64,000 bases of DNA, taken from NCBI GenBank assembly GCA_938084835.1, contig CALKER010000011.1, positions 1 through 64,000 on the forward strand, given 5' to 3'. The position numbers and the translations under genes are program-made. Positions 7,898-64,000 of this stretch are shown piece after piece. The notes beneath the pieces are model-generated. The model saw only the letters and a program-made list of their open reading frames with translations, made no database searches and was not told the DNA's origin. Numbering within the stretch: the first letter of the stretch is position 1; every line of letters begins with the position of its first letter. The DNA comes from an uncultured Thermoguttaceae bacterium (GTDB lineage Bacteria > Planctomycetota > Planctomycetia > Pirellulales > Thermoguttaceae).

Positions 7898-8392
7898 ATG
7901 AAATGCCCGTTTTGCCATGTAGTCAATGACCGCGTGCTGGACTCCCGCACGTGTGAAAACGGATATGCCATTCGTCGCCGGCGGCAATGCAAAAACTGTG
8001 GCCGGCGATTCACAACTTTCGAGCGCTCCGAACCGGTTCAATTAAAGGTGATCAAGCGGGACGGGTCTCGCGAACCCTTTGACCGTACGAAGCTGAAACG
8101 CAGCCTGGAAATTGCCTGCGGCAAACGTCCCGTCAGCGACGCGAAGTTGGAACAGATTGTTTCCGAAATCGAAAATCAAATTTTTGCAACCTTCGACACC
8201 GAGGTGGAAAGCCGATACATTGGCGAGCTGGCGATGGAACATCTCCGCCGGCTAGACCAAGTCGCGTACGTGCGCTTCGCGAGTGTTTACCGCTCCTTCC
8301 AAGAGGTAAACGATTTCATCGAGGAAATCCGGCAGATTTTGGCCGATGGCTCCCCACGAACCAAGCGGACACAGCACCACAGAAAGAATTGA
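7898..8392 (+). CDS. nrdR: Transcriptional repressor NrdR
   Basis: NrdR represses ribonucleotide reductase genes in response to ATP/dATP. The 164-residue product begins with the family zinc ribbon MKCPFCHVVNDRVLDSRTCE, with the second CxxC pair in QCKNCGRRFTTFER. It continues with the ATP-cone (VIKRDGSREPFDRTKLKRSL), and the C-terminal helical part reads EVESRYIGELAMEHLRRLD...AYVRFASVYRSF as in other NrdRs. Length is slightly above the usual ~150-160 because of a basic tail (TKRTQHHRKN). The ATG at 7898 has AAGGGGG eight bases upstream. No ribonucleotide reductase gene is in the window, so it acts in trans. Confidence 0.96.
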   Translation: MKCPFCHVVNDRVLDSRTCENGYAIRRRRQCKNCGRRFTTFERSEPVQLKVIKRDGSREPFDRTKLKRSLEIACGKRPVSDAKLEQIVSEIENQIFATFDTEVESRYIGELAMEHLRRLDQVAYVRFASVYRSFQEVNDFIEEIRQILADGSPRTKRTQHHRKN

Positions 8393-45957: not shown

Positions 45958-48900
45958 TTAGTCCACAGAGGGAGTCCAAAAGCCGGTTAACTCCAAGGCG
46001 TAGTCAAACGGGTTTTGGGCCAGCTCTAAGCGGGCCCCAAATCGGCCCACGGCAACTACACGGGTTGGTCTCTCCAGCCAACAACTCGAGCGTGGCCCGA
46101 TGATTCCCACGACATTAGCAGCGGCCACAAGCCTATCTTTTGCAGAAGAGTCGTACACGATGCTCGTTATGCCTGCTTTTGGTGCGGCTTGGATGCGAAC
46201 CTGGCTGATGCCGGAAAACTGCCAATCACCTTGCGGACCAACAAGGCGCACCCACTCGGGGGAGAGCACAACGTGGCTGACCCACGACGGAGCGCGAACA
46301 AGCGCCTGATCGGCACCACCTTGTTGGGCGTAGATGCGCAGTACATCAAAACCCTTGGCCACCACAACCCCTCGCACAGTGACCAATTCCACCCAATTAT
46401 CGCCCAGGCGGAAAAGGTCATCACTGGGCGAGTCAAAAATGCGGATGATATCGCCGGAGCCAGCCGTGGCTGTCACGATGACCTGGGCGAAACCTTGTAC
46501 CCGCGTATACGCGCCGGGGGTCGTAAGGGTCACATATCCACTAGTGATAACCGCTGAGTCGGTCCCCGGTGAGTCATACAGTTTGGCAACGTCTGCACCG
46601 TAGGAAGATCGGGCTATGACCCAGCGAAATCCCTCAGCCCGTTGGAAATATCCGGGACCTCGCATGGCGGCATATCGTGGCGTGGATGTAAACGAGTCCT
46701 CACCCGGGCCATCTTGGAAATAGATGGCATCAGTGCCACCAACCGACGAGGTGGTTAAGATAGTGGCAAATCCCCGCACAGCGACCATCACCCGCTGGCC
46801 GTAAAGGGTGGCTTCCCTTGGGCGGAGGAAGATCCGGTCGTTGCCTGGGGTGTCGCCAAGTTGGGCTATAGTGCTCGGTCCAGCCCCCGCCCACACATCG
46901 ATTCGTTCGAATCCCTTGAGGTTGATCGCCACTTCTGCGGTAACAAACTGGGCCCCCACGTGTGTAAACACAAAACGATCGGATGGGCTATTTCCGTAGA
47001 TCCGGGCTGAGTCGGTCGGTCCCCCGGCAACAAGCGAGATGCTGGCCACGTGCTTTGCGGCGACCCAAAGCCCGGTGTGCCCGATCAGGGCCTCGCCATT
47101 GCGAAAAACGAAGGACGTAGCTCCCAAAGCGGAAGTCCAATAAAGTTGGTCCCGCCCTCCTTTTCCTACGATTTCAATCGATGTGGCAGCGCGCCTTGGC
47201 AACGTGTACTCCACTCCATTGATGGCAACATGCAGGTCTTGTCCCACCGCGATTTGAACGACATCATCTTTGGGAGAACCAAAGACCTGAACTTTTCCGT
47301 CAGAAAAGCTTAGAAGGTTGACCGCGCGGAGGGAAACGACTTGGCCCTGTCCTGTTAAGCGCATCAAGTACTCGCGCTGCGCAATGACTTCGGTATCTAA
47401 GCGGCAAGTGCCGAAGGGGGAATACGCGCGTGCCAGCCGCTGTCCGGAGGCATCGAAAAGATCGATCTGAATCGGCAAATTTTCAAGGGCCGAGGTGGCC
47501 TCCGCGGTGAAACTCCCCGAATGTGCCGCGCGGAAGCGCCACCAGGTTCCGCTGCCCGGCGCAGCAATTTGTTGCTCTTCGAGCCAGTGAAGAATGCCAA
47601 GGTTTTCGCCCCTTTCACCCTGGCCGATTGGTGCCAGGAGAAAGTTATATGAAGAGTCGGCCAGGTGTGGCTGTGGCAGGATGGGATAAGCTTCGCCAAT
47701 CGGCGCCACGACAAACCACCCGACAGGTGGCTCCACGCACAAAGCACCGGTGCTGGCGGCAACCTGCGGGAGGAAAAACACCCCATCACCATCTGTGAAG
47801 GTCGTCGGTTCGGCGTACCCCAAGGAAAGATTCCATCCATGAAGGATGCCGGAATCGCGAGTGGATACATCAACAATCTCCAAAACCCACACTCCTTGAG
47901 CTGGCTCACCCTCAAAGGCACGAAGTGCTTGGGCCGGGTGAATGTCGCCGCTAATGTGTCGCTGCTGGGGGGAAATGGTCCGCAGGGCATCGTCGCGAAA
48001 GGTAACATCGCGGAGTACGCCAGCTCCTAACGGGGGCCGGGAAAGAAGCTTTACACGCGTGCCAGAGGGACTAATCAACGAGATCTCTAAGTCGTGGAGA
48101 AACTGATGCTCAAGCGAAAGGGACACAAAAATCTGTGTTATTTGTCCTGGGGCATCCACTTCGACTGTGGCCCGGAGGGTACCCAGGTCGGGAATTGGCG
48201 TTGGTTGTCCCGACCAACGGTAAAGCGACGAGCCTTCGTTGAATGTGCGGTCATTGTTTGTGTCAACAAACACCCGCACGCCGGCGATACCCCCCGCGGT
48301 TGAGTCAACGGAGGCAGTCCCAGGGATGTCGGCCAGGACCCTTCCAGAGATGTGACCGGGTGTGCCAGAGGGGTCACGGGGCCCTATCTGAAGTGGTAAC
48401 TCAGGATCGCCGAGAAGAATCGTAGTAAAGTGAATCCATCGATAGACGCCCGTATCCCCCACGCGGAAAAGATTGTCAAGCTTGGAATCATGATGGGCCA
48501 GACCAAGGTGAACAAACTTTTCGTTAAACAAGGCATCGAAAAACTCGTAGGCGTAAAAATGGTTCCCCCCAGGGGTGGGTCCCGGAACATACCAGCCGAA
48601 TCGCGTGTTCATCACCGCGGCAACAGCACTTGCGGGAGCCACCACGTGGGCTTCTCCGATGGCAAGATCGTACAAGTCGAAAGCGCCTGAATAGCACCCC
48701 TGGGAGTAGAAAACATAAGGCATGGAGTTAGTTAACGATTGCACATTGGCCACGGTCAATCGGGCATTCCAGTGGGCACTTGCATGGCCCAAATGATGCA
48801 CCAGATGGGGAGACTGGTTGAGAAGCCCGCGCAGTTCTTCGCCGCTCCAGCGGCCGTCGCGGTCGTAACGCTCAATGGCAGTCCAATCCCCCGGGAGGGT

Positions 48901-50613
48901 TTCGCGACGAATCGCTTCTCCGGAGATGCTTCCATCGGTCCGAGAATCAAGCTCTTCCCCCAGCCACAGCACGGTGGTTCGCTGAGGATGGGCGTAGGAC
49001 TCGTAGCGAATGACTTTATCAACGAAATATACGGCTTCCGTCCAGGAACTTACAGGCGCACGGCCGACGAAGACCTCGGGCACGAGATCGATATCCCTTC
49101 TCCCGATGCCGTCAACAGGTTCTCCCCAGATGCCATTGCGATTTCCGTCCCATGGGCCATCTAGGCAGGCGTAGTAGAGATCTGTGGCAAGTGATGTGTC
49201 CACGATCGAACTAACACGGGCATAAACCCCGCGAGTAGGAATGATCTCCACATCGCCCCCCAGAAGAATCCAGCTTGTCCCCCAGTGGAGGTAAGCCTCG
49301 CTAATGAACTGCCGAATGCGGTCGGCCAAATCGCCGGATTCTGTGCCGGTATATCGGCTACCAATAAGCTCGATAGTGACGATGGTGGCAGAAAGGCCCC
49401 GGCTCTTTTTGTGGTCCACCAATCGCTCGAAAACCGCCTGTAGCTGCTCAGAGGTGATTACTACATATTCGAAATGGCCCGCCCACGGAAGCCTGGGGGA
49501 TTGCGCGGGGACGGTAGCTGTTACGTACGTGGTAATCGCAGCTGGGTTGTCCACATAAGATGCTATTAGACTGATGTCCTCGGGCAATAAGCGTAGCGTG
49601 TGAGGGAGGAGGTCCCGATTTTGACCGTCATTCTGTGATATGGCACCAGCAGTGGATGAAATCTGCGGGATTGTTGACGAACTGGCAGTAATCTGGAGGG
49701 TCATTTCCTCATGGTAAATCAGCGTTGCCCAGGTATCATCCCAGTGAACCGGAAACACCTGAATGGTGGCGAAGGTAAAACCGCGAAACGTATGAAGCTG
49801 ATACCGCACAGGAGTCAGAGACGTGAGGACGTCCGTGGGTAAACCGGTCCAACTCGCAGCTCCCTCGGTGGTTTGCGAGCCGACCACGGCCATTGGGGTC
49901 AGCACAGCCGTGGGCAGAACCGATAAAGGCTGGGCTTGCGAGGAAAAATGCACGGTGATTGTCAGGGAGTCACTGCGTGCCGGCAGGAGGAGCGTCGACA
50001 CCCGTACAGGAACGACGGGTTCGCCAGGCTGGAGCCATAGTGACTCGCTTGCGAGTGTCACAAACCCACCTTGTGGGGCTAAGTGGAAGGAGGGTAACCC
50101 CTGGAAGCGAAAGCTAAGCCGCGATACAAGGGCGTCGCCCTCAGTGCGGAAGTCGTCAACGGCGTCGGCGCCTCGCGGTCGCGACTGAACCTGCCAGCCG
50201 TCAGCCACCAGCGCGGAGGGCCAAGAATAATCTGCATGTGCGGGAAGCCTCTCAGCCGGCCAAAAATGTTGCCCCCCTTCCGCCAAAAGGCCGAAAAGGC
50301 CGTAACCCCCCGGACCAACCGAAAGGAAAAGGCGATCTTCGAGTTGTTCAACAAAGCGGGTGTGTTTCCGGCCCTTGAGCCGCCCATCCTGTTGCCGCCT
50401 GGTTCGAAGGGTCAACAGTCGCTTTTGCTTATTCCGAGGAGATTCCGCACGTTCTGTGGTTTTTGCACATGGCGGAAAAACAAGTGCCTGAAATCCTGTC
50501 ACTATTCCGCTGCAACGGTTTTGACTCCTGCTTCCCAGCCATTTCTGCAGAATTCTGCCGTGGCCACGGCCCTTGACTAGCGCCGTGGGCGCCGACAAGT
50601 GAGAGCGATCCAT
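45958..50613 (-). CDS. Secreted C25 (gingipain-like) cysteine peptidase with P domain and repeat tail
   Basis: 1551 residues; the ATG at 50613 has GAGG six bases upstream. The N-terminus is long and basic and ends in the LEPR-XLL-type motif EQLEDRLFLS (residues 91-98), typical of large exported planctomycete proteins. A gingipain propeptide-like region is followed by the C25 catalytic domain (about 380-720): catalytic His610 in VHHLGHASAHW and Cys640 in SQGCYSGAFD, 30 residues apart as in gingipains. A proprotein-convertase P domain follows (LRATVEVDAPGQITQIFVSL, HDLEISLISPSGTRV, GVWVLEIVDVS). The last ~450 residues are a repeat tail shared with the giant protein upstream, ending DYALELTGFW. 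Probably cell-surface bound. Confidence 0.85.
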   Translation of the reverse strand: MDRSHLSAPTALVKGRGHGRILQKWLGSRSQNRCSGIVTGFQALVFPPCAKTTERAESPRNKQKRLLTLRTRRQQDGRLKGRKHTRFVEQLEDRLFLSVGPGGYGLFGLLAEGGQHFWPAERLPAHADYSWPSALVADGWQVQSRPRGADAVDDFRTEGDALVSRLSFRFQGLPSFHLAPQGGFVTLASESLWLQPGEPVVPVRVSTLLLPARSDSLTITVHFSSQAQPLSVLPTAVLTPMAVVGSQTTEGAASWTGLPTDVLTSLTPVRYQLHTFRGFTFATIQVFPVHWDDTWATLIYHEEMTLQITASSSTIPQISSTAGAISQNDGQNRDLLPHTLRLLPEDISLIASYVDNPAAITTYVTATVPAQSPRLPWAGHFEYVVITSEQLQAVFERLVDHKKSRGLSATIVTIELIGSRYTGTESGDLADRIRQFISEAYLHWGTSWILLGGDVEIIPTRGVYARVSSIVDTSLATDLYYACLDGPWDGNRNGIWGEPVDGIGRRDIDLVPEVFVGRAPVSSWTEAVYFVDKVIRYESYAHPQRTTVLWLGEELDSRTDGSISGEAIRRETLPGDWTAIERYDRDGRWSGEELRGLLNQSPHLVHHLGHASAHWNARLTVANVQSLTNSMPYVFYSQGCYSGAFDLYDLAIGEAHVVAPASAVAAVMNTRFGWYVPGPTPGGNHFYAYEFFDALFNEKFVHLGLAHHDSKLDNLFRVGDTGVYRWIHFTTILLGDPELPLQIGPRDPSGTPGHISGRVLADIPGTASVDSTAGGIAGVRVFVDTNNDRTFNEGSSLYRWSGQPTPIPDLGTLRATVEVDAPGQITQIFVSLSLEHQFLHDLEISLISPSGTRVKLLSRPPLGAGVLRDVTFRDDALRTISPQQRHISGDIHPAQALRAFEGEPAQGVWVLEIVDVSTRDSGILHGWNLSLGYAEPTTFTDGDGVFFLPQVAASTGALCVEPPVGWFVVAPIGEAYPILPQPHLADSSYNFLLAPIGQGERGENLGILHWLEEQQIAAPGSGTWWRFRAAHSGSFTAEATSALENLPIQIDLFDASGQRLARAYSPFGTCRLDTEVIAQREYLMRLTGQGQVVSLRAVNLLSFSDGKVQVFGSPKDDVVQIAVGQDLHVAINGVEYTLPRRAATSIEIVGKGGRDQLYWTSALGATSFVFRNGEALIGHTGLWVAAKHVASISLVAGGPTDSARIYGNSPSDRFVFTHVGAQFVTAEVAINLKGFERIDVWAGAGPSTIAQLGDTPGNDRIFLRPREATLYGQRVMVAVRGFATILTTSSVGGTDAIYFQDGPGEDSFTSTPRYAAMRGPGYFQRAEGFRWVIARSSYGADVAKLYDSPGTDSAVITSGYVTLTTPGAYTRVQGFAQVIVTATAGSGDIIRIFDSPSDDLFRLGDNWVELVTVRGVVVAKGFDVLRIYAQQGGADQALVRAPSWVSHVVLSPEWVRLVGPQGDWQFSGISQVRIQAAPKAGITSIVYDSSAKDRLVAAANVVGIIGPRSSCWLERPTRVVAVGRFGARLELAQNPFDYALELTGFWTPSVD
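45961..47330 (-). repeat. C25 protein repeat tail (YDSP/GF..V units)
   Basis: This section encodes about seven ~50-60-residue units with the pattern GxDxAxxYDSPxxD, then a Y/T strand and GFxxVxA. Clear units contain AKLYDSPGTDS, IRIFDSPSDD and IYFQDGPGED. It opens with KVQVFGSPKDD and NGVEYTLP, which match VYFYGTAAPE and NGVEYRFP in the giant protein's tail. Confidence 0.7.
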
Positions 50614-51188
50614 GGCTCACCTCGCCCAGCCCATTTGACAAGTAAAAGGTCGACAAAAGTGAACCCCATTGGCCCATCATGGAGGAAGATCGAGCGTCAC
50701 AGCCGGCAACGCCCCTGGCATGGACAGCCGTCTTTCCTCGCAAGAGAAGTAAACGCGAAAATCAAAACCATAAGGGTTTTTCCATGACTAGGAGAGGATC
50801 AACCGATCCTACCGTAATATAGGTCGCAAAACGGCGGCAAAGGAAGGCACTCGGCGCATAAACAGCCGGCGAAAAATGTGGCGAAAAGAAAAATGCGGAA
50901 AAAGAGTTCGATTTATGTTTAGGGATGGGACGATCGGTTCCTCGATGTGTCGGAATGTCCTCCCTCAAAAACGCCGTTGTCAAAAAGCAACAGCTGTTTC
51001 CTGGGCTCAACAAAAAGCCCACCGCTTCCGTTGCGGTGGGCCAATCGGCGCTTTTGCCAGCAACTCATGCAGGAGGCGGCTTACTTGTCGGCTCGTCCAA
51101 GGCCCGGTTGATTTCAGCCCGCGGGCATGCTGGCCACAAAGTCAACTGCTCGGCTTTGATGACAAAACGGGCAAAACACTTGGGTGTT
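50614..51188. other. Intergenic between giant protein and C25 genes
   Basis: It holds the intrinsic terminator at 51012-51041 for the giant gene. The C25 promoter must lie at about 50620-51010, but no clear -35/-10 pair is seen. Confidence 0.5.
51012..51041 (-). terminator. Intrinsic terminator of the giant-protein gene
   Basis: On the minus strand GCCCACCGC, loop AACGGAA, GCGGTGGGC, then TTTTTG: a perfect nine-pair stem with a T-tract, 148 bases after the giant gene's stop. Confidence 0.88.
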
Positions 51189-54100
51189 TTAATCCCTCCA
51201 GGAGCCGAAAGTTTCCAATGCGAAATCGAGTGCTCCGATGATTTCCTTAGTGTCTACACCGGGATCACTTCCGTAGGCTTCCACCCTGTCGAAGTTGATA
51301 GCCCATAACTCGTAGTCAACAAGGCTATTGCTGACTTTAGCCCAATTGCCCTGGGCCTGGAGATGATCACCGGCCCAAGCCAGGGCCATATCGTACAGCT
51401 GGGCCAGATCGTACCCGGAAGTGGCATTGCCCACGACCTTACTGAAGCCCACAGCCTGGTTATCGTAGCCGGCTCCGTACATTCTCCCTTCGAAGGGCTT
51501 GGCCACGAAACGATCGTCGCCCAGCGAATCGTAAAAGATGGCGTGATCATTACCTCCGCGGGAGTAAGCGGTCACATAGCGGAAGCCCTCTACCTGGACC
51601 TGGTAGTTAATGCCCACCATTAAGGCGTAGGTGGGATAAGCGAGGAACGACTCCGCCTGGGCCGGATCGTCATACAAGCGACCGCGATCGTTGCCGCCGC
51701 GAGCAATTGCCTGAACATTCCGGAAACCGAAAACCCGGTGGTTAAACGTATCGCCGTAGTAAACGGCATATGTAGGAGTGGCCTCGAAACGATCGAACCG
51801 AGCCGGATTATCGTACAAAATGGCCGTGTCACTACCGCCTCTCGACTCAGCGGTTACATAGCGGAATCCCTGCAACTGGATGCGGTATCCGCTGCCGGCC
51901 AATTCTACATTACCCGGCTGAGCTACAAACACATCGACCCCTATCGGATTGTCATAGAGGGTCGCTCCGTCATTCCCGGTTGTGGCGTAGGCCACCACAT
52001 CGGCAAAGTCGCGGGCAAAGACGTAGAAGCCAGCACCGGAGATCCGGGCATAAGTCGGATCGGCTACCACCCAGTCGCGGGTGGCCGGATTGTCATAGAG
52101 GATGGCTTTGTCGCCGGATCCGTTTCCGTAGGCATAGGCCCAACGGAAGTTATCCGCCTGGATGAAGTAGCTTCCGCCATCCAACTGGACGGAAGTAGGC
52201 GTACCCACAAATGTTTCGGCCACGGCAGCGGAGCCGTAAAGCCGTACCACGTCGGCCCCTTCACCCGGATTACCGCGGATGTGGACCCGCGGGAAATTAT
52301 TGACGCGATTGACCACGGCTCCGGTGGTCATTTGCACATAGCTTGAGGTTCCCACTACCGTGTCCTTAACGCCGGGCGTTGCCGACAGGACCGCTTGGTC
52401 GTTGCCACCGCGGCCATTGACCGTTACGTTTTCCGCCTGGGTGACTACAACCAAGAAGTTTGCCCCTGTGAGCATCGCGAAGCCGGATCGCAATTCGACG
52501 GTCTCGGCACCGCTTGTTCCGTTGAGAATCGCCACGTCTTGCCCAGCGCCAGCGGCGAAGACGAAGGCATCTACCTCCGAAGCCGGGAATCTGTACTCCA
52601 CACCGTTGTACACAACCCGGTGTTGACCGCCGGGACTGGCGGTAGGTGTAAATTCGAACCTCTCTGGCGCCGCCGTGCCGTAGAAGTACACCGTGCGCCC
52701 TTGCCGCGCGAGTCCCGTAGGAGCTGAGGCCACAATCTGTACTTGATAATCTTCCACCTCACCATTGAGGGCCGACCCGAAGTAAAGGAGCCCGCCTGTG
52801 GTGCTGAAGCGGAATCGTGCAAATGTATTTCCTAATTCAGCCCAGCTGGGGACTGTGAAACTTAGCATGTTCACGCCGGGCCAGAGAGGTTGGCTGGTGA
52901 AAATCTGCTCACCGGCATCTACGACGCTGAGCGGGTCGGTAGGATTACCCCAGCGGCCATTTCGGTTAAAGTCGACCCAAGCGTCTAAATAGCCGGCCAC
53001 CGAGGCCCGTACGGCCACCTGGGCTACCTGACCCGGTATCAGCGGTGTGAGGAAGACCACACCGTCTTCGTCGGGCAGGTTGGTTTGGTCATCCCCCAAG
53101 GCATCAGCGGAGGCCAAGCCATCGCGCTCGCCGTCCACCTGCCAACCCAGATAGACAGTCGGATCAATCGCATGCCGCGCACCATCGTCGGCCAACAACG
53201 TACGGTAGGAAGCCGGGGCATCACCAAAATCCCACCCAAGCCCACGGTCATCATCATTGAGGATCCACACCCGCACCTCGGAGGGATTAAGCACCACCGA
53301 GCCAGTTCCCAAAGCAGGCACTTCCGCGGCGGAAATGCGGACCCAGAAGTATTCATCCGACTCTACCCGATCGTCGCCAACGATGGTCACGCCAACCGGT
53401 GTCACAATCCGTGGTGACTCATACTGGGCAACGCAAATCTCGTAATCCACACCGTCCCAGTTCCGCCACGTGACGTAGTCCCCCGAAATTAGGGGATACC
53501 AATCGGTCGCCGGATGTCGCGAGATATTTTGGGCCACACCCGCGGTCGACAAGTCGTATACAAACACCTCGAAGTTGCTACCAATTCGGGCATGCCACAC
53601 CACCCGATGACCATCGATCTTCGGGAACTGGTTGTCATATGGGTTGGCAGAAATGTTGGTTGGGGGCAGGCCGAGCTCCAGCTCCTCCAAATTCATGTAG
53701 TAGATTTGCCACGTGGTGCCCACCCTAGTTTGCCATACCACGTGATTACCCGACAAAGCGGGAGACACATCGGCCACAGTGTTATTGGTGAGCTGGCGGG
53801 AGACTCCGGTGGCAAGATTGTGAACCCAAATTTCGTAATCATTTCCGTCAAACTGTTCCCATACCACCCACTGACCATGAATCCGCGGGGCGCGATCAGC
53901 AGTGGTGTTATTGGTCAGTCGACGGGTGCCGGCGATCGCATCCCAGATGTAGATTTCCTCGTCGAACCCATCCCAACCGGACCATACCACATGCGGGCCA
54001 AAGGTCTGCGGTGCGAAGTCGCCGAAGGGATTACCCGAGATATTTCGCGGCGGCTGGGTGACTCCCCACGTGCTGTTCACCCACGCCTTGTAATTGAAGA

Positions 54101-57100
54101 CAAAGACTTCGCTGTTGGAAGCTGTGACCTGACCCACCCACACCACGTAGGTGTCATCAATTTGCGGCGAGGATTCGTTGAAGGTGTTGTTCGTAAGCTG
54201 AATGGCAGGAGAAATAAACCCACGTCCACGCTCGTACACACGGAGGAATACTTCTGTATCCGTTTGTCCGGGCGTTTGGTCTTGACCGATCCACACCAAA
54301 TAAGCCCGGTCTCCATCTTCGTACACGGTGGGGAATCGGTCATCCACGGAGTTATTCGTAACCCGATGGACCGAATCGGTCTTGAGGTCGTACAGCCAAA
54401 TTTCCCAATCGCCGCCTTCAGCCGGCGGGTCGAGAACTTGATAAACCAGGATGTGTCCAGACAGGCCGTAGTCGTAGTCCCCGCGGTCGTTACTGGTAAG
54501 GACCCGCACCGGCCATCTGCTCTGAGGTGGCAGGTCCGCCGTCAACTGCAAGGCCTGCGCTATGGGAAGATAGTCGTTGTCCACGGCAGTGGCAGTGCCG
54601 TCGGCGGTTAAAAGCACAAGGTCGATGGGCGCGCCGAAGGATCGCTCCCACACCAAATTCAGTTCTACCTCGGTGAATTGACCGTTTTGGCCTTCCAGGA
54701 CGCGGACATCGTTCCATGAGAGGATTGGGCGGAGGAAATTGCCGAAATCGATACGGCTTATCACCGCCCCAGCATCGAGGTTCACCGTGTACGAGCCATC
54801 GGGATTGACGCGGGCCGGTCCACCCGGCAAGAAGCTCGTCAGTCGATCCACGGTTAAGGTGCGACCACGGAGGATTACCTCAGTGTCCGCCGCTACTGCC
54901 CAGATGTTCAGACCGAGAGCGGCGGCCTGGGTTTGCACGGCTGTGGCAATAGCGGCAGCAACTTCTGCCGGTGTGCGACCTGCTACCGGGATCAGCACAT
55001 GGCCCCGGCCCGGGTAAGAGGAAGCACCGTCCCAATCGAACTCGAAGGTCACCTGGCCCCGGCCATCTCCGACCGAGAAAATCGAACCTTCGGGGATGGT
55101 GCTACCGGCAAGTGCGGTGAAGCGAACCGTCCACGGATAATCCTGGGGGAAGAGGATGACGGGATCACCAGTGATGACAACCTCATCCCCTTCTGCTCCG
55201 GCCTGGAGAATCAACCCCCGGGTGCCGCGAGCCGTGTTCACCGCTGTGGTGATCGCTTCGGCCACTTGGTCCGCTGTGGTCAGGCCGGCTATATTCACCG
55301 GGATCACCCCCGGATCGCTCAGCAACCCATTACGATCGAATTCAAAGGTGTGAACTCGCCGGCCGTCAAAGATCCTCAATTGGTCGCCGTCCCGCAGCTC
55401 GCTGGGCGGAACCGCCACGACCCGAAGATCACCCGAAGCCAGATAACCCACGGCACCCCACCGCGGGTTGGTTTGTATCCACTCTTGCCACTCTGGTGAT
55501 GTCAGATCCTCTCGGATGACATAGGTGCCGGGGGGCAAGGGGCCAAAGCGGAATCGGCCGGATTCGTCCTCCAAGGTGCCGCGCAAATCGCGCTGCGCCA
55601 CCACCGTCCATTCACCGGGATCCCGCACGCCATTGTTATTAGCGTCAATGTACACCACGCCTCCCGGAATTCCGTATTCCGGTCCGTGTGGTCGGCCAGT
55701 GTTGGGGTCGATTCTTACGCCGAGGACCTGCTGAGCCACAAGCTCATCCAATCCGGTTTGGCTGGTTGGTCGGAAAATGCGGGCATACGTGAAGTTATTG
55801 CCGGCGTTGAACCCGATCTCCGCTCCCGGGTCCCCGTAGCCGCCGGTCCGCACCCAAGTGCCGGTCTCGGGATCGAAATAATCCCCGGTCGTCCACTGCA
55901 GGTTCCAGTAGACGAATCCCACCACATCGCCAAGGGGGTCATCTTCGATGTAAACGCCGAAGGTATTTCGCCGTGATAGAAGTGGCAAGTTGAGCGGATC
56001 GTATCGATTGTAAAAGCCCACATCAACCCACGTCACCTGCACAAACGGATTGCCTGTGAGCGGGTTGGTGCCGCGGGAAAGTTCCACACGCCCACCACCC
56101 AGTCGCAAGTCAACATCGGCCCAGAAGGGCGCAATCATCGGAATGCTTTCTGGGAATCCTGCCAAATCGAAGGCGCTTACCGGCGAGCCAAACGAGATCG
56201 CTCCGTTTTCACTCACGTAAAACTGCGTGTAGATGGCTCCGTAATAAGCGAACTCGAATCCCAGGTCGATCGGTCCAACTGTGGCGTTAAACCCGCCGGT
56301 TAGGATGGGGGTGCCGGAGCCTGGAGCTGTGGGCTGGATAATGGGCTGGAAGACATTCGGCCACCATTGCCAGATTCCGTCGGCGTTGGCATCGTTGAAC
56401 TTGGTACCCTGGATCACACCCTGAAGGCTTTCCACAAACAGGGCGTGGTCCTCAACTTCGCCGTCTGGGGCGCGGCCTACCGGGGCCAGTACCGCCTGGC
56501 GATCACTCGAATACCGCAACCGTAGGAAGGTGACACCTTCGGCCGCCGAGGCGGGTACATGCACATCGAAAACAAACGGCGCCGAATCGTCCGCGATGTA
56601 AACACCTTGGACGACATGCTCGCGGACATACTGGCCGGTGAGCGGATCGAGGTAATCGCTGAAGACGCCGTCACCATTAAAGTCAATCCACGCACTGAGG
56701 TATCCGGTCCCAGTGACGGCCACTTCGAATCGCCCAATCTCTCCGCGGTAGAGAATGCCCGGACGGAACTGGCCGGCCACCAGGGTGCCGTAGCTTAAAA
56801 GCCCATCTTCATCCTGTTCTCCGGTGAAGTCATCTCCCACAGCCGCCTGATCCACCAGAGCGTCCGGCTCGGCATCGCCCGGCGCGTAACCTAAATACAC
56901 ACCTGTGGGGACCAGCAAATGTCGCGGGCCGTCATCCGCCTTCAACGTGCCGTAACTAGCCGGAGCATCACCAAAATCGAGGATGGGTGCCCGGACTTCA
57001 ACCCGGTGGTCCTCCACCTCTCCATTCGGATCCGGCCCGGCAGGATCTGGATTCCCTCCGTAGGGGAGCAAGTAACGAACATTGCTGCTAAAGCGCAGCC

Positions 57101-60100
57101 GCAGGAAAGTCTCGCCCAAAGGCATATCCTCGGGCAACGGGGCAAGCTCAGTTAATTCGTGGAGCCAATACAGCCCGGGTGAAGCAATCCACACGCCGCT
57201 GGCCAATTGTTCACCTGGATCCTCCCAATCGCCGTCTTGATTGATGTCGATCCAGGCATTGAGGTAGCCCGGGGTTGCGGCAAAAAGTTGGATTAGCGGC
57301 TTAAAGCCGGGGCTAACAAACCACAGCCGCATACCGTTTTCGTCATCGAGCCAATGTTCGTCGTCCCCTAAAGCCTGATCGTGCGGTAGCCCGTCGATGT
57401 ACCAGTCAACGCCGACGAGTTGGCCTGTCTCAGCATCCGGGAAGGCCAGATACGGATTGTTCTTAGGCCACACCACGTGGTAGGCACCGCCGGCATCACG
57501 AGTGACCGGATACCTGGCCGGGGCATCGCCGTAGTCTCGGTAGTAGTCAACAATCGTGACCTCGTAGTCTTCCACTTCGCCGTCGGTAGCAAGGCCCAGG
57601 TAGTTGGGCGATCCGCCCACAGGTAACTGAGAACCTGTCAGACGGAAGCGGGCCCAGGTCTTACCCAATTCGGCAGCCCGTGGTACGTTAAAGACCAGAT
57701 AGCCGGTCTCAAAGTCGAAATCATTCCAGCCGGCCTTCACGGGCACATTAGTGAAGACGTATTCGGAGCCTTCCGGCCACACATCGTCCCAGTCGCCATC
57801 TCGGTTAAAGTCGATCCAGGCATTGAGATAGCCAACAGTGCCGTCGGGCTGCACGGGCCAGTCAGCGGGAACACTGACGTAGACCCGAACACCGTGCCGC
57901 TCCAATGGCTCGGTGGGGTCGCGCTCAACGCGGATTTCGCCCCAATACTGGAAGAACACGCCATCATCGAAGGTATCGACGCCGCGCGCGTTAAGCTCTT
58001 CGTCCACAGCCCAACCGAGGGCGAAGCCTGGTACCACAATGTGACGCGCTCCATCGTTTTCCCGGCGTGTGGGATAACGATCGCTCGGGGCATCGCCATA
58101 GTCCCGCGGCTCGACCAGAAGGAGCACCTGATGATCTTCCACCTCTCCATTAGGCGGCGGGCCGTTAGGATCAGGGTTGCCACCGTACGGTGTCAAGTAC
58201 TGCACATTGCTGCTAAAGCGTAGCCGCATGTAACTTGTTCCGGGAGAAAGATCTTCCCGAAGAACAAGGACTTCCGGCCGCAAATGAAGCTGATGTTCGC
58301 CGGGCTCAAGCCACAGTCCCTGCACTATGTGCTCGCCGGCATCGTCCCAGTCTCCGTCGCGGTTGAGATCAATCCACATATTGAGCCACCCGCCGGTGAC
58401 AGCGTTGACGCTCATGATCGGTCGCGCCCCGGCCGTTAACGCCTCGATCCGCACGCCGTTTTCGTCATCGGTGCCGGGTAGATCAGGCCAACCACCTAGA
58501 TCGTCCCCTAAAGCTTGGGGATGTGGCTGACCATCAAGCTCCCAATCCACCGGGATAATTCGCCCAGTCACTGGATCCGGATAAGCAAGATGGGGATTGT
58601 CGACCGGCCATACGACGTGGTAAGCCCCATTTTCTGCCTCGAGGGTGCGATACGGGGCCGGGGCGTCGCCCCAGTCGCGGTAGTATCCCACCAGCTCTAC
58701 CGGGTAGTCTTCCACCTCGCCGTCCAGAAGCTCCATGGCGAAGCTTACGTCGCTGCTGGCGGTAATGGGGTAGCTACTTAAGCGGAAGCGGGCCCAGCTC
58801 GGCCCCAACGCCGCATCGTAAGGTACCGCAAAGACCAAATAGCCGGTGCCGAAGTCGTACCGATTCCATCCCGCCCGCACCGGTACGTTGACAAATACCT
58901 GCTCCTGTGGATCACTCCAGGCACCATTGCGGTTAAAGTCGATCCAAGCATTCAAATACCCAACAGTGCCGTCGGGCTGTACCGACCATCCCGCAGGCAC
59001 GCTAACATAGACCGACACCCCGTGACGTTCCTGTGGCCGAGCAGGGTTACTCTCCACCCGGATCTGCCCGCCATATTGGAACACTATGCCGTCATCCCCA
59101 TCGTCGACTGTCAGGGCATCCTGCTCCTCGGTGATGGACGCTCCTAAATGGAAGCCCGCAACCATTAAGTGGCGAGCCCCATCGCTGGCCAGCCGGGAGG
59201 GATAGCTCGGATCTGGGGCATCCCCAAAGTCAAGCGGCCAGCGCTCAAGCCGTACCCAGTGATCTTCCACTTCCCCATTGGGATCCTCTCCCGGCGAAGA
59301 TGGATTGCCACCATAGGACAAGAGATAGCGCACGTTGCTGCTAAAGCGCACGCGTAGGAAGGTGTCACCTTCGCTGAGGGTCATCGGCAGGATGCCCACA
59401 TCAGCCAATTCGTAGAGCCGATGTTCACCCGGCTCCAACCATAGCCCCCGAACCAAGTGTTCCCCGGGATCATCCCAGTCCCCGTCCCTGTTAAGATCCA
59501 CCCAGAGATTAAGCCAACCTGCGCCCACAGCATACACACTGATCAGCGGCCGCATGCCTGCTACTAAGATTGGCCGGCCATCGGGAGTTTGCAGCACCGC
59601 CCGCACGCCATTTTCGTCGGCAGCCCAGCCACCCAAATCATCACCCCGTGCTTGTGGATGCGGCTGACCGTCCACCTCCCAGTCGGGAGCGACCACAATT
59701 CCCGTAACGGGGTCGGGAAAAGCTAAGTGGGGATTGTTTTCCGGCCAAATCACGTGGTAAGCACCATTCTGCGATTCGACCGTGCGGTAAGGTGCCGGCG
59801 CATCGCCCCAATCCCGATAGTAAGGCACCAATTTCACCAGGTAGTCTTCCACTTCGCCGTCCGGGGCTTCGCCAAGGTAACCGGCCACAGGGGGTAGCGT
59901 TACGCTCGATAGCCGGAACCGGCTCCACGTTTCGCCAAAGGCGGCACTGTGGGGCACATTAAAGTACAAGTTATTCCAGCCGGCTTTCACCGGAACGTTC
60001 TGGAAGATTTGCTCGCCTGGGTCGTCCCAATCGCCATCGCGAGTGAAGTCGATCCAAGCGTTTAAATAGCCCACATTCTCATTCGCATCGACCGGCCATC

Positions 60101-63100
60101 CTTCCGGTGTGCTGACGTAGACGCGTACCAGATATTGCTCGGCAGGTCGGGCCGGATTTGTTTCCACCCGAATCTCGTTCCCGTACTGGAAGACGACCCC
60201 ATCGTCGAATTCATCTTCCGCGGGAGCATTGCGATCCCGGGTGACACCCCAACCCAGGTGGAAGCCGTCCACAATTACGTGGCGAGCTCCGTTGCTTTGC
60301 AGCCGCGAAGGATAGGATGGATCCGGCGCATCGCCATAATCTACAGGTACCAATTCCACGGGAACCCGATAGTCTTCCACTTCCCCGTTGGGATCGTCGC
60401 CACCGCTGATGGGATTGGCGCCGGTTGGGCCAAGACCCTGGACGTTGCTACTGATTCTCAGCCGTACATACGTCGCACCGACAGGCATATCCTCCGGCAA
60501 CAGCCCGAGGACGCCGGGCAGCTCATGAAGCCGATGCTCGCCCTCATTCAACCACAAGTCGCGAACTACGTGATCCACGTCATCGGCGAAGCTTCCATCC
60601 TGATAAACATCAATCCACACGTTGAGGTACCCGCCGCCGACCACATAGACGGTAATGCGTGGCACACGACTGGGGTTAAGTGTCTCAATAAAGGCTCCGT
60701 TTTCATCGGCGCGGCGGCCGTCGAGCCAGCCGTAAATGCTATCGGTGTCATCGCCTAAAGCCTCCGGATCGGGCTGGCCGTCGAGCTCCCAATCGGGCCC
60801 GACGAAGATGTACTGACCCGTGTTCGGATCGACCAGGTATTCCCCGGTATCCGGATCGCGGAGAGGAAATGCCAAATGGGGATTACCCACTGGCCACACG
60901 ACATGATAAGCGCCGTTGTCGGCCCGGAGTGTTCCGTACGAGGCCGGCGCATCGCCCCAGTCGCGGTAGTACCGTACCAGCTCCACCTGGTAATCCTCCA
61001 CCTCACCGTCATCGGCAACGCCGGTGAAGCTGAGGGCATTCTCCGGCGTGAAGCGATAACTCGTCAGGCGGAAGCGGGCCCAGCTGCTCCCGTACTCGGC
61101 CTCCCGCGGTACACTGAACACCAGGTAGCCACTGTCAAAGTCAAACTGGTTCCACCCAGCCTTTACCGGGATATTCTGCAAGATATACTCCGAGCCGGTG
61201 TCCCAGCTATCCTCCCAGTCGCCATCGCGGTTGAAGTCGATCCACGCATTCAAATATCCCACCGTTCCATCGGGAGCTGTGGGCCAACCGCTTGGCACGC
61301 TGACATACACCCGGACACCGTGGCGCTCCACCGGTTGATTGGGATCTTTCTCTACGCGGATTTCCCCACCAAACTGGAAGATTACACCATCATCGAAGGT
61401 GTCTTCCTCACGTGGGGCAAGCTCGCGGGAAATACCGGCTCCGAGATGGAAGCCATCCACAATTAAATGCCGAGCTCCATTGTTGACAAGCCGCGACGGA
61501 TATGGCAGATCCGGCGCATCACCGTAGTCCAGCACATCGATGCTCACCGTGAAGTAGCAATCACCGAAGACGGGGTGAGCCACGGGCCGGTTCGGCTGCA
61601 GAATATTACCGGCCAGGTCTCGGATCATGGTCCGATCCAAAGCAATGGTGTAGCGGTAGCCCGGCTCCCACAGCCCCGGCGCAGGATACAAAATGATCCG
61701 ATCATTAGTTACATCGTAACTGAACAAATAGTCGGCACCCACCGCAAGTGGTGTCTGGCGGTCATCGCGATAAACTTGGACGGCCTGCGGGACCACCGTG
61801 GCATCATCGATGCCGATTCCCACATCATACAAGCTGATAACAAACTCCGTCACCCGCACATGGGCCAGGGCCACCTCGTGGGGACTCCGGGCACGGTCGG
61901 CAGGACCGTTATCTACCGGTACCGTGATGGCTGCCGTTGGACCAAAGAAGTCCACCCGGTCCACCGCTCCACGATCCTTGAAGACATTGGCGCCCATACC
62001 GGCTGGCGGTGCTACCCACGGATCGTCCTGCCGCAATTGGCCAAATAAGTCCAGACTTGGCGCTAAAATCGGTGAGGGAGGAATTCCGATCGGCTGAAGC
62101 ACCGCGCTAAAGTAGCCGGACCGCTCCTCCAAACTGTCGATGGCACTGTCGATAATCCGAGAACCGGCGGCCGGATAGAAATTGTTTCGCTCGGGAGCCA
62201 CAAACAGCGGCTCAGTCGGCCCAAGGAGCAGAGCAAACGACCCCGTAGTTGTGCCACTAGCATTTTGGGTATTGCGGGCAAAAGCGTTGCCACCCAGCAC
62301 GGTGCTCGCCGAAGTTGAGTGGACCAAAACACCTGTCTGCCAGCCAGCAATGACATTGTTCAAAAGCGTGGGCGTAGCATTGGGACCAACTTGAATACCC
62401 GTTCCGGTGGCACTCTGACCTCGTAGGACATTGCCCACCACGGTGTTGTTAACAATTCGCCCGAAAGGAATAGCACCCAGGGGCTGCGCTGTGTCGCCGC
62501 CGAAGTAGATTCCACCCTGGCCACTGTAGGCCACAATGTTGTTGACCAAAGTCACCCCGGGCACCCACATCGAACCGGGAGTATTTGTTGGATAAGCGGC
62601 GTTCATCCACCGGCCGGAGCCCGGATGCGGCCAATTTCCGCCGGCATCTCTTGCCGCAGGCTCCACACGGATTCCCCAATCGCGCGAATACAGCACCTGC
62701 GTGCTGTCGATGATGAAATACCCTTTTTCCCGGAGCTGATTTTTATCCCCAATAAGCGGGTGATTGCCTTGTTTCGGGTTGACATAGGTCACGCCGGCCG
62801 GCGGTGAGGGTACGAAGTACGTCGTAGATGGCAGACCAATGACCTCTTGGGCTTTGTCCGAAAGGTCCACCCGGCCCGGAATGGAGATAGCTGCTGTTAC
62901 GTTCAGTTTTCCATCGGTGTTGGCTCTGTTAATCGCGTCGCGAATGAGGACGGCGATCTGGCTGGCAAGCATGCCAAATTCATAGGTAATCTGGTAAAAC
63001 TCCGGCGGCGCCGTTTCCCCAGTTAATGCGTTGATAAACATGAAATCGACCGCATTACCGTCGATGTCCGTTACACGGAAGGTGCTGCGATGGTTAATCG

Positions 63101-64000
63101 TATTACCGGCCGGAGCTTCGATCCGAAGATAGCGCGTTCCCACAGCCTCGACCGAGCCATAAATAATTTGCGAAATGGCAAAGGCCGGCCGAACTTGTGG
63201 AGGTGGATTCTGCTCCCCACCTAAGATGCCGCCCACGTACACCGCACCCCACAGATCAACGATATCCGAGACGCTTCGCCGCAGGGCCTGAACGTTCAAC
63301 CGGCCTTCGTTGGCCGCCTGATTTATGGCACTCTGCACTTTGCTTGCCAGCACAGCGGCCGACTCGTACCGCGAGAAGAAAATGGGAATGGCCTCCCCCG
63401 TAGCTCCACGCAGATCGTTATCAAGGAAAACAAACTCCTGCCGGCGGACACCGTCGTCGATCCAGAATCGATCCCCGTGACCAAGCTCGCTGGCCGGCGG
63501 AATGCGGATGCTAATCTCCTGAACAAACCGATCATTGGTGTCCACCTGCGGAGCAAGCCGCAGCACAGTGTACGGCGCGCTCGGTGGTCCGACCAAAGTC
63601 CCGAATTCATGGCCACGCCGGATTTCCAGCTGGTAACTTCCAGTTACCACAATGTTCTCATCCAACCGCGGTTCGCGCAGGAAGTCAAAACCGGTGACTC
63701 CGGTCGGGGCGTTGGTCACAAGTTCGCCACGCTCAGCAAAGCCAATGACGATGTCATCAATGTACCACCCTTCAAAGGCATTATTTTGGCCGCGGCGGAA
63801 ATTCCAAAAGCGGTTTTGGTTTCGCCCTGTGCCATAGGACTTATTGGTGGTATCGCCTTCTAAGGTGCTGGCATATCGGAAAGGCCCTGGGTTTGTCACC
63901 TCCACATCGTAAACGCGGATGAGAGCCTCCGCCCGACTTGCGCCCGTATTGTTCGGACTCGGGCTACTCGAGAGGAAACGCTCGTCCAATTTCCACGTGG
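51189..64000 (-). CDS. Giant modular surface protein with tandem GEVED domains (5' end outside window)
   Basis: At least 4270 residues; the frame is open to base 64000, so the N-terminus is missing and the TTG at 63989 is an internal leucine. From the N-terminal side: a FEGWYIDDIVIGF jelly-roll end; two ~75-residue modules with a D-G...FVF/FMF core; a parallel beta-helix (62000-62800; repeated NNIVAYSGQGG, NNTVVGN); an SbsA/Big_5-like Ig domain; nine GEVED domains (56440-61540); a NIDO-like domain inside an SdrD_B-like one; two more FEFD modules; a Calx-beta domain holding an eight-repeat propeller; a tenth GEVED domain; and a YDNP repeat tail ending DFALETFGSW. No catalytic domain is seen in this part. 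It is probably a cell-surface or cell-wall structural or adhesive protein. An intrinsic terminator follows. Confidence 0.88.
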   Translation of the reverse strand, partial: TWKLDERFLSSSPSPNNTGASRAEALIRVYDVEVTNPGPFRYASTLEGDTTNKSYGTGRNQNRFWNFRRGQNNAFEGWYIDDIVIGFAERGELVTNAPTGVTGFDFLREPRLDENIVVTGSYQLEIRRGHEFGTLVGPPSAPYTVLRLAPQVDTNDRFVQEISIRIPPASELGHGDRFWIDDGVRRQEFVFLDNDLRGATGEAIPIFFSRYESAAVLASKVQSAINQAANEGRLNVQALRRSVSDIVDLWGAVYVGGILGGEQNPPPQVRPAFAISQIIYGSVEAVGTRYLRIEAPAGNTINHRSTFRVTDIDGNAVDFMFINALTGETAPPEFYQITYEFGMLASQIAVLIRDAINRANTDGKLNVTAAISIPGRVDLSDKAQEVIGLPSTTYFVPSPPAGVTYVNPKQGNHPLIGDKNQLREKGYFIIDSTQVLYSRDWGIRVEPAARDAGGNWPHPGSGRWMNAAYPTNTPGSMWVPGVTLVNNIVAYSGQGGIYFGGDTAQPLGAIPFGRIVNNTVVGNVLRGQSATGTGIQVGPNATPTLLNNVIAGWQTGVLVHSTSASTVLGGNAFARNTQNASGTTTGSFALLLGPTEPLFVAPERNNFYPAAGSRIIDSAIDSLEERSGYFSAVLQPIGIPPSPILAPSLDLFGQLRQDDPWVAPPAGMGANVFKDRGAVDRVDFFGPTAAITVPVDNGPADRARSPHEVALAHVRVTEFVISLYDVGIGIDDATVVPQAVQVYRDDRQTPLAVGADYLFSYDVTNDRIILYPAPGLWEPGYRYTIALDRTMIRDLAGNILQPNRPVAHPVFGDCYFTVSIDVLDYGDAPDLPYPSRLVNNGARHLIVDGFHLGAGISRELAPREEDTFDDGVIFQFGGEIRVEKDPNQPVERHGVRVYVSVPSGWPTAPDGTVGYLNAWIDFNRDGDWEDSWDTGSEYILQNIPVKAGWNQFDFDSGYLVFSVPREAEYGSSWARFRLTSYRFTPENALSFTGVADDGEVEDYQVELVRYYRDWGDAPASYGTLRADNGAYHVVWPVGNPHLAFPLRDPDTGEYLVDPNTGQYIFVGPDWELDGQPDPEALGDDTDSIYGWLDGRRADENGAFIETLNPSRVPRITVYVVGGGYLNVWIDVYQDGSFADDVDHVVRDLWLNEGEHRLHELPGVLGLLPEDMPVGATYVRLRISSNVQGLGPTGANPISGGDDPNGEVEDYRVPVELVPVDYGDAPDPSYPSRLQSNGARHVIVDGFHLGWGVTRDRNAPAEDEFDDGVVFQYGNEIRVETNPARPAEQYLVRVYVSTPEGWPVDANENVGYLNAWIDFTRDGDWDDPGEQIFQNVPVKAGWNNLYFNVPHSAAFGETWSRFRLSSVTLPPVAGYLGEAPDGEVEDYLVKLVPYYRDWGDAPAPYRTVESQNGAYHVIWPENNPHLAFPDPVTGIVVAPDWEVDGQPHPQARGDDLGGWAADENGVRAVLQTPDGRPILVAGMRPLISVYAVGAGWLNLWVDLNRDGDWDDPGEHLVRGLWLEPGEHRLYELADVGILPMTLSEGDTFLRVRFSSNVRYLLSYGGNPSSPGEDPNGEVEDHWVRLERWPLDFGDAPDPSYPSRLASDGARHLMVAGFHLGASITEEQDALTVDDGDDGIVFQYGGQIRVESNPARPQERHGVSVYVSVPAGWSVQPDGTVGYLNAWIDFNRNGAWSDPQEQVFVNVPVRAGWNRYDFGTGYLVFAVPYDAALGPSWARFRLSSYPITASSDVSFAMELLDGEVEDYPVELVGYYRDWGDAPAPYRTLEAENGAYHVVWPVDNPHLAYPDPVTGRIIPVDWELDGQPHPQALGDDLGGWPDLPGTDDENGVRIEALTAGARPIMSVNAVTGGWLNMWIDLNRDGDWDDAGEHIVQGLWLEPGEHQLHLRPEVLVLREDLSPGTSYMRLRFSSNVQYLTPYGGNPDPNGPPPNGEVEDHQVLLLVEPRDYGDAPSDRYPTRRENDGARHIVVPGFALGWAVDEELNARGVDTFDDGVFFQYWGEIRVERDPTEPLERHGVRVYVSVPADWPVQPDGTVGYLNAWIDFNRDGDWDDVWPEGSEYVFTNVPVKAGWNDFDFETGYLVFNVPRAAELGKTWARFRLTGSQLPVGGSPNYLGLATDGEVEDYEVTIVDYYRDYGDAPARYPVTRDAGGAYHVVWPKNNPYLAFPDAETGQLVGVDWYIDGLPHDQALGDDEHWLDDENGMRLWFVSPGFKPLIQLFAATPGYLNAWIDINQDGDWEDPGEQLASGVWIASPGLYWLHELTELAPLPEDMPLGETFLRLRFSSNVRYLLPYGGNPDPAGPDPNGEVEDHRVEVRAPILDFGDAPASYGTLKADDGPRHLLVPTGVYLGYAPGDAEPDALVDQAAVGDDFTGEQDEDGLLSYGTLVAGQFRPGILYRGEIGRFEVAVTGTGYLSAWIDFNGDGVFSDYLDPLTGQYVREHVVQGVYIADDSAPFVFDVHVPASAAEGVTFLRLRYSSDRQAVLAPVGRAPDGEVEDHALFVESLQGVIQGTKFNDANADGIWQWWPNVFQPIIQPTAPGSGTPILTGGFNATVGPIDLGFEFAYYGAIYTQFYVSENGAISFGSPVSAFDLAGFPESIPMIAPFWADVDLRLGGGRVELSRGTNPLTGNPFVQVTWVDVGFYNRYDPLNLPLLSRRNTFGVYIEDDPLGDVVGFVYWNLQWTTGDYFDPETGTWVRTGGYGDPGAEIGFNAGNNFTYARIFRPTSQTGLDELVAQQVLGVRIDPNTGRPHGPEYGIPGGVVYIDANNNGVRDPGEWTVVAQRDLRGTLEDESGRFRFGPLPPGTYVIREDLTSPEWQEWIQTNPRWGAVGYLASGDLRVVAVPPSELRDGDQLRIFDGRRVHTFEFDRNGLLSDPGVIPVNIAGLTTADQVAEAITTAVNTARGTRGLILQAGAEGDEVVITGDPVILFPQDYPWTVRFTALAGSTIPEGSIFSVGDGRGQVTFEFDWDGASSYPGRGHVLIPVAGRTPAEVAAAIATAVQTQAAALGLNIWAVAADTEVILRGRTLTVDRLTSFLPGGPARVNPDGSYTVNLDAGAVISRIDFGNFLRPILSWNDVRVLEGQNGQFTEVELNLVWERSFGAPIDLVLLTADGTATAVDNDYLPIAQALQLTADLPPQSRWPVRVLTSNDRGDYDYGLSGHILVYQVLDPPAEGGDWEIWLYDLKTDSVHRVTNNSVDDRFPTVYEDGDRAYLVWIGQDQTPGQTDTEVFLRVYERGRGFISPAIQLTNNTFNESSPQIDDTYVVWVGQVTASNSEVFVFNYKAWVNSTWGVTQPPRNISGNPFGDFAPQTFGPHVVWSGWDGFDEEIYIWDAIAGTRRLTNNTTADRAPRIHGQWVVWEQFDGNDYEIWVHNLATGVSRQLTNNTVADVSPALSGNHVVWQTRVGTTWQIYYMNLEELELGLPPTNISANPYDNQFPKIDGHRVVWHARIGSNFEVFVYDLSTAGVAQNISRHPATDWYPLISGDYVTWRNWDGVDYEICVAQYESPRIVTPVGVTIVGDDRVESDEYFWVRISAAEVPALGTGSVVLNPSEVRVWILNDDDRGLGWDFGDAPASYRTLLADDGARHAIDPTVYLGWQVDGERDGLASADALGDDQTNLPDEDGVVFLTPLIPGQVAQVAVRASVAGYLDAWVDFNRNGRWGNPTDPLSVVDAGEQIFTSQPLWPGVNMLSFTVPSWAELGNTFARFRFSTTGGLLYFGSALNGEVEDYQVQIVASAPTGLARQGRTVYFYGTAAPERFEFTPTASPGGQHRVVYNGVEYRFPASEVDAFVFAAGAGQDVAILNGTSGAETVELRSGFAMLTGANFLVVVTQAENVTVNGRGGNDQAVLSATPGVKDTVVGTSSYVQMTTGAVVNRVNNFPRVHIRGNPGEGADVVRLYGSAAVAETFVGTPTSVQLDGGSYFIQADNFRWAYAYGNGSGDKAILYDNPATRDWVVADPTYARISGAGFYVFARDFADVVAYATTGNDGATLYDNPIGVDVFVAQPGNVELAGSGYRIQLQGFRYVTAESRGGSDTAILYDNPARFDRFEATPTYAVYYGDTFNHRVFGFRNVQAIARGGNDRGRLYDDPAQAESFLAYPTYALMVGINYQVQVEGFRYVTAYSRGGNDHAIFYDSLGDDRFVAKPFEGRMYGAGYDNQAVGFSKVVGNATSGYDLAQLYDMALAWAGDHLQAQGNWAKVSNSLVDYELWAINFDRVEAYGSDPGVDTKEIIGALDFALETFGSWRD
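51200..52720 (-). repeat. Giant protein repeat tail (YDNP units)
   Basis: It encodes 8-9 units of about 45-60 residues: G-x-D-x-A-x-L-YDNP-xx-D-x-F-x-A-x-PTYA, then GxGYxxxxxGFRxVxA. Examples are AILYDNPARFDRFEATPTYA and GRLYDDPAQAESFLAYPTYA. The final unit (WAKVSNSLVDYELWAINFDR) and end motif differ. Confidence 0.85.
53415..54500 (-). repeat. Eight TolB/WD40-like propeller repeats inside a Calx-beta domain
   Basis: Eight ~40-50-residue repeats with the pattern LTNN-xxxDxxPxIxGxxVVW-xxxDGxDxEIxVxxLxTG. Examples: RAPRIHGQWVVWEQFDGNDY, DVSPALSGNHVVWQTRVG and QFPKIDGHRVVWHARIGSNF. The flanks (TADGTATAVDNDYLP before; GVTIVGDDRVESDEYFWVRI and VRVWILNDDD after) are the two halves of one Calx-beta domain. 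Confidence 0.75.
54740..55390 (-). repeat. Two FEFD modules in the giant protein
   Basis: Two copies of a ~75-residue unit: DGDQLRIFDGRRVHTFEFDR, then TADQVAEAITTAVN and a strand EVVITG; and VGDGRGQVTFEFDWDG, then TPAEVAAAIATAVQ and TEVILRG. Two more diverged copies lie at about 62880-63530 (VTDIDGNAVDFMFIN and IDDGVRRQEFVFLDN). Confidence 0.6.
56440..61540 (-). repeat. Nine tandem GEVED domains, alternating A and B types
   Basis: Nine domains, each ending in GEVED(Y/H). Type A opens DYGDAPDPSYPSRL..NGARH and has FDDGV.FQ and VGYLNAWIDFNRDGDW. Type B opens YYRDWGDAPAPYRTL...NGAYHVVWP, with a DGQPHPQALGDD segment and LWLEPGEH. The order is A-B-A-B-A-B-A-B and then a ninth domain of B-like opening (DFGDAPASYGTL). 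Each A+B pair is about 1.1-1.2 kb of DNA. Confidence 0.85.

Follow-up and report, generated by a model that had tools for sequence, protein, structure and literature searches.

The C25 peptidase and the giant protein encoded by two neighboring genes of an uncultured Thermoguttaceae bacterium end in a common tail, and the observation is real, general within its lineage, and wider than these two proteins. The C-terminal position of the tail, its conservation, its association with an N-terminal export motif, and the variety of the fronts that carry it are established. We infer that its role lies in folding, stability, or surface retention. According to the reading favored here, which is held with moderate confidence, the module would be a capped C-terminal β-solenoid of proteins exported by way of the LEPR-type motif, folding and stabilizing them or holding them outside the cell. 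The manner in which planctomycetes export and retain giant surface proteins is unsettled, and a well-delimited C-terminal module that finishes in a sharp motif provides a handle on the problem.

The two neighboring genes and their shared tail

The window analyzed is a stretch of 64,000 nucleotides, and the two genes are arranged head to tail on its minus strand with the C25 peptidase gene positioned downstream of the giant. The relevant features are as follows.

45961..50613, minus strand: C25 peptidase gene (ORF), 1551 aa, with LEPR motif, C25 domain, P-domain, and C-terminal tail
50320..50343, minus strand: N-terminal motif LEDRLFLS of the C25 protein, aa 91-98, LEPR-XLL / Planc_extracel type
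45961..47298, minus strand: C25 tail module from opener to C-terminus, aa 1106-1551, homologous to the tail of the giant
47278-47298, minus strand: C25 opener GKVQVFG
inside 47206-47226, minus strand: C25 INGVEY
47016 down to 46045, minus strand: C25 repeat units, six recognizable
45976..46008, minus strand: C25 closing motif FDYALELTGFW, aa 1536-1546, five codons ahead of the stop
51189..63989, minus strand: giant protein, C-terminal 4266 aa; it runs on past the window (7298 aa in the contig)
51192..52694, minus strand: giant tail module from opener to C-terminus, aa 3766-4266, modeled with AlphaFold2
52677-52694, minus strand: giant opener TVYFYG
52593-52610, minus strand: giant YNGVEY
51270..52544, minus strand: giant array, nine units of ∼47 aa (unit-profile matches, best E 1.4e-21)
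51198..51230, minus strand: giant closing motif LDFALETFGSW, aa 4254-4264, two codons ahead of the stop, forming the last strands of the model

Within the C25 protein, PF01364 matches residues 383-741 (E 6e-48) and PF01483 residues 827-931 (E 4e-14); LEDRLFLS was assigned by pattern, without a curated profile above its cut-off. That portion of the giant contained in the window is composed of GEVED domains, a nidogen-like domain, and propeller repeats, followed by the tail. The gene upstream of the giant gene encodes a BBP2-type porin.

The first-pass annotation had proposed that both proteins end with the same order of opener, repeat units, and closing motif. The coordinates agree, and the tails are homologous, with the last 515 residues of the one protein displaying 27% identity to the last 515 of the other over 432 residues (BLASTP E 2e-21 in a single comparison). 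The upstream parts, thought to be unrelated, yield noise only in BLASTP (best 26 bits, E 0.045). The YDNP/YDSP repeats that had been assigned to both tails are borne out for the giant with its nine units, but the C25 array is degenerate and contains one true YDSP unit.

The order and orientation of the two genes are kept in two congeneric genomes, and a tail-bearing C25 peptidase adjoins the giant gene in three. The giant tails of the two congeneric genomes are 76 and 60% identical to that of the window, and their C25 tails 42 and 33% identical to its C25 counterpart. Since these same-kind values exceed the 27-31% identity observed between giant-kind and C25-kind tails, the two copies diverged before the genus split, without homogenization since.

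Distribution, position, and conservation of the module

Seven tail proteins are encoded in the source genome, on contigs C8, C10, C11 (two), C13, and C17 (two), and the closing motif differs from one to the next: FDYALELTGFW, LDFALETFGSW, VDWLLATGW, VDYVLTFGSW, VDFLITRGYW, LSYVLEDIGPW, and FDFELELIGDW. The tail of the giant alone found no match in the genome contigs, and a diverse alignment gave no usable pattern; three closer tails employed as queries succeeded. Of 60 relatives, 34 showed repeat matches; the closing-module profile matched 55 of the 119 genomes of the family. Of 392 genomes sampled across the phylum, only 8 matched, the source genome included; seven of these fall within its order, and the eighth comes from another family within its class. 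The named tail matches are mostly from Pirellulales, Thermogutta MAGs among them, and the module is nearly confined to that order. Pfam, NCBIfam, and PHROGs contain nothing that matches it convincingly. We consider it to be undescribed, a C-terminal partner of the N-terminal motif not having been found in the literature searched.

As assigned by profile, the fronts include C25 with a P-domain, GEVED with a nidogen-like domain and propeller repeats, subtilase S8 (one with a P-domain), a PF09826 propeller, a trypsin-like domain, SdrD_B with a weak GDSL lipase match, and Big_9/cadherin with lamin-tail domains. What these proteins have in common, apart from the tail, is located at the opposite end of the chain. 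Among the 17 tail proteins whose N-terminal frame is complete, 16 show the pattern LExLExRxLLS following a basic stretch, and the remaining one, which starts inside a domain, is probably truncated. The motif is of the PF07595 (Planc_extracel) / NF012209 (LEPR-XLL) type, both of which are without a match at curated cut-offs in the source genome. It was described in 2004 by Studholme et al., as cited in PMC8567305, where it is treated as probably a new signal for the export of planctomycete surface proteins; the tail proteins belong to the same class of giant surface proteins as those in that report. Their N-termini mostly do not contain a hydrophobic segment of signal-peptide strength. LEPR proteins devoid of the tail exist as well: two in the source genome end otherwise and a third runs off its contig, and in 1.2 Mb of a related genome there are three LEPR proteins, two with arrays and one without the tail.

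For proteins whose loci were fetched by the repeats alone (at least three units, stop codon in view), the array is C-terminal in 48 of 48 distinct cases. The detected units number from ∼3 to 17, and the last one ends 22-168 residues before the stop (median 26). The endings of these proteins, chosen without regard to the closing motif, are GxW in 33, another Trp-containing form in 12 (Trp within the last 12 residues, often AVDxVxxAYWP), and without Trp in 3; the motif is conserved. A closing-module profile trained on 25 sequences (73 positions) gave 70 further full-length matches, and 68 of the 69 with the stop in view, a held-out set that includes some orthologues of training sequences, end 0-6 residues from it. 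One exception, L176, is a second and weaker match 147 residues from the stop in a protein that has a terminal closing module also. The other is L192, 1777 residues long, whose array and closing module run only to about residue 950, the C-terminus being occupied by a matrixin-like domain. Hence the tail was found where the first-pass annotation had predicted, namely at the C-terminus of large exported proteins with varied fronts, and neither outcome that would have spoken against its idea was seen: the closing motif is conserved, and the repeat does not occur equally often in cytoplasmic proteins or in mid-protein, L192 being the one clear case of the latter.

The spacing of the units is 46-47 residues over 597 distinct examples, with the consensus GGxDxAxLYDSxGDDxF...GF..V.AYA. 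G1 is conserved in 92% of them, G2 in 100%, D4 in 98%, D15 in 88%, and F38 in 88%. The closing consensus is VDFVL...GxW. In 88 non-redundant closing modules the Gly is found in 96%, the Asp in 85%, Phe or Tyr in 91%, and the Trp in 100%; note that the last value is inflated by the requirement that a match reach position 68 of 73, a bias from which the repeat-selected set is free.

Predicted fold and the closing motif

AlphaFold2 models, each based on an alignment of 14 sequences, were obtained for the complete tail of the giant (pLDDT 91.3, pTM 0.78) and, with confidence, for its last 215 residues (pLDDT 95.0, pTM 0.91). They are all β, with approximately five short strands per unit. In the 215-residue model the closing motif forms two confident final strands (195-203 and 206-210), and an amphipathic helix, considered as an alternative for this segment, was rejected on that basis.

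The top structural neighbors are RTX domains. The complete tail matches them with a Foldseek E of 5e-5, and the 215-residue model, for which Foldseek gave no match below E 0.1, superimposes on one with Z 5.8 and an rmsd of 5.4 Å for 169 aligned residues, values that are low for repeat proteins. All RTX matches to the tail models have Z scores of at most 5.8 and low TM-scores. Like the RTX β-roll (PF00353), the tail is predicted to be a C-terminal, Gly/Asp-rich, all-β repeat solenoid with a C-terminal cap, and the β-roll, although a weak match, is its best structural neighbor. The RTX unit, however, is nine residues long as opposed to 46-47, and its consensus xUxGGxGxD, recognized by PF00353, is unmatched in the tail: 14 tails searched at E up to 10 gave no PF00353 match, and an hhalign comparison with a generic nonapeptide consensus aligned 13 columns with 35% probability. 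RTX rolls hold calcium in their turns; the sequence of the tail shows conserved Asp and Gly turns. Because the structural matches are weak and the sequence match is absent, the tail was not filed as an RTX domain; the models suggest that it resembles one. Two other results were judged to be chance: a flavodoxin, the only solved structure to match by sequence (65 positions, E 0.007), and Hermes DNA-binding Pfam matches of the repeat in 7 of 14 tails (best E 2e-4).

The likeness raises the issue of whether the tail proteins might be type I substrates, with an RTX-like roll whose cap and C-terminal secretion signal lead to export by HlyB/HlyD/TolC. The Gly/Asp-rich, C-terminal units and the fold matches are in keeping with such a scheme, and in RTX rolls the last ∼20 residues of the C-cap do carry a secretion signal (PMC6891781). 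RTX proteins travel through a type I machine, whereas HlyD of that type (TIGR01843) scored above cut-off in none of the 119 family genomes (best 113 of 208.65 bits). Other planctomycetes possess a second SecA/HlyD locus (PMC4452313); it was not seen in the source genome, which is 92.7% complete, because only one SecA_DEAD protein scored above cut-off there. Together with the lack of a PF00353 match and the presence of the LEPR motif at the N-terminus, these results render type I export highly improbable, and it is disfavored.

With respect to the closing motif, the question is whether it functions as a cap or as a tag. RTX rolls fold only when their C-terminal edge is protected (PMC6891781). 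A free sorting tag, on the other hand, would be expected on proteins that lack the array as well. A 21-column profile of the closing motif (30 rows, one a hand-written consensus and the rest natural) retrieved from the source genome the seven array proteins and nothing else, even at E up to 10. Six other genomes yielded, below E 0.01, array proteins already seen and no others. When 1.2 Mb of a related genome was translated mechanically, a loose regular expression fitted 10 of 10,909 ORF ends, as against 33 of the 48 array proteins picked without regard to the motif; the longest of the ten belongs to an array protein, and the remaining nine look like chance fits. Because the motif is predicted to fold as the last strands and was seen in these searches only where the array is present, it looks like a structural C-cap, and a free-standing sorting tag was rejected. 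A cap thus explains the motif no less well than a sorting tag would, although the folded end may additionally be recognized by something. Short conserved C-terminal motifs on varied exported proteins are likewise the hallmark of PEP-CTERM and GlyGly-CTERM, but there the motif is accompanied by a hydrophobic transmembrane helix and a basic end, both lacking in the tail, whose motif lies in a folded β domain. C-termini such as ALDFALETFGSWRD and VDYVLTFGSWIDR are predicted to be β strands. A general C-terminal VDxxF motif on non-array proteins, suggested by the matrixin-like ends AVDQFF and DVDAIF, was dropped because that position corresponds to the last helix of the matrixin fold.

Possible roles of the tail

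In the capped-solenoid reading, the closing motif would serve as a C-cap covering the open edge of the solenoid at the chain end, and the array would fold after its arrival outside the cell, with this capped end either initiating the process or sealing it. By analogy with RTX β-rolls, a metal such as calcium would probably be held by the near-invariant Gly/Asp turns. The folded and capped array would protect the C-terminus and stabilize the protein, and might also retain it on the cell surface. The analogy may fail, given the weak structural matches and the missing RTX sequence match. Furthermore, a cap alone does not account for a C-terminal array on so many proteins, and the occurrence of array and cap in mid-chain in L192 counts against the explanation.

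A sorting or anchoring role, in which the closing motif or the folded module is recognized by an envelope machine for outer-membrane passage or attachment, is possible but unlikely. The parallel would be the type IX C-terminal domain (TIGR04183 / PF18962), with the LEPR motif serving the inner-membrane step. The strict C-terminal place, the sharply conserved end, and the combination of varied fronts with an N-terminal export motif on the same proteins are as expected for it, and the C25 peptidase adjoining the giant gene in the three congeneric genomes belongs to the clan of the type IX sortase. The type IX domain is likewise a β module on varied exported proteins, C25 peptidases included; it is short and Ig-like, however, whereas the planctomycete tail is a long repeat solenoid, and comparison of the two window proteins with Pfam and NCBIfam (E up to 1) returned no type IX tail profile. 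SprA_N gave no match, but the control genomes did not match it either. Opposed to sorting are the folded, array-bound nature of the motif, the LEPR proteins that do without the tail, and the absence of a recognizing machine in the searches for type I HlyD (119 genomes) and a second SecA (source genome). The co-occurring secretion gene that the first-pass annotation had envisaged was accordingly not found in these searches. Of its localization tail, the common C-terminal module of exported proteins stands, and the sorting or localization system is unproven. With the module defined, fusions, truncations, and phyletic profiling become designable and the sorting reading is now testable; a profile of the tail would, in addition, annotate the ends of many otherwise unlabeled Pirellulales proteins.

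An extension of the sorting reading, which we regard as quite doubtful, is a two-ended pathway for surface display. LEPR-XLL would direct passage across the inner membrane and the capped GxW solenoid passage across, or attachment to, the outer membrane, with the adjacent C25 peptidase processing or attaching cargo in the manner of PorU, which does so in type IX secretion. With a score far below cut-off, the PorU profile matches the C25 protein at E 1e-10.

Finally, the solenoid might serve adhesion or ligand binding, the partner being polysaccharide, neighboring cells, or further proteins with the tail; its location at the C-terminus would then be a mere matter of arrangement. This is improbable: the conserved positions of the unit are Gly, Asp, and core hydrophobics, which present no obvious binding face. 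What speaks for adhesion is the variable length of the array and the nature of the fronts, peptidases and cadherin/Ig stalks among them. Variable arrays and fronts of these kinds are found in many surface adhesins.

A second C-terminal module and the mid-chain array

In the loci designated L229-L258, large proteins carry a recurrent matrixin-like C-terminal domain (HExGHxxG...LM...G.RR.P...VDxxF). This domain, observed on large proteins in 50 of the 246 genomes sampled from the order, represents a second C-terminal module that is common among proteins of this kind. It found no match in the window's own genome. The same type of HExGH domain forms the C-terminus of the following protein, which bears the planctomycete export motif.

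L192 (G450:C382:5000-14539), 2636-7966: LEPR protein, 1777 aa

Here the repeat array and its closing module lie mid-chain, with the latter near residue 946. This is the only clear non-terminal array among the cases seen.

Tail proteins on other contigs

The window's pair is resembled by two neighboring tail-protein genes on one strand of contig C17.

L028, 624-14645: tail protein, 4674 aa
L028, 14905-18225: tail protein, 1107 aa

A tail protein of the planctomycete type was also observed on JABMRB010001106.1 (locus L066), a contig labeled Candidatus Nealsonbacteria. That label looks wrong, because the match fits G018:C1009, from the window's own family.

Surroundings of the giant gene

Two long frames antisense to the giant gene appear to be shadow frames of repetitive coding sequence rather than genes.

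Window 51738-52346, plus strand: long frame
Window 53514-54611, plus strand: long frame

Immediately upstream of the giant gene lies a porin gene, with nadA beyond it.

L030, 14192-16414, minus strand: BBP2-family outer-membrane porin gene (PF07642)
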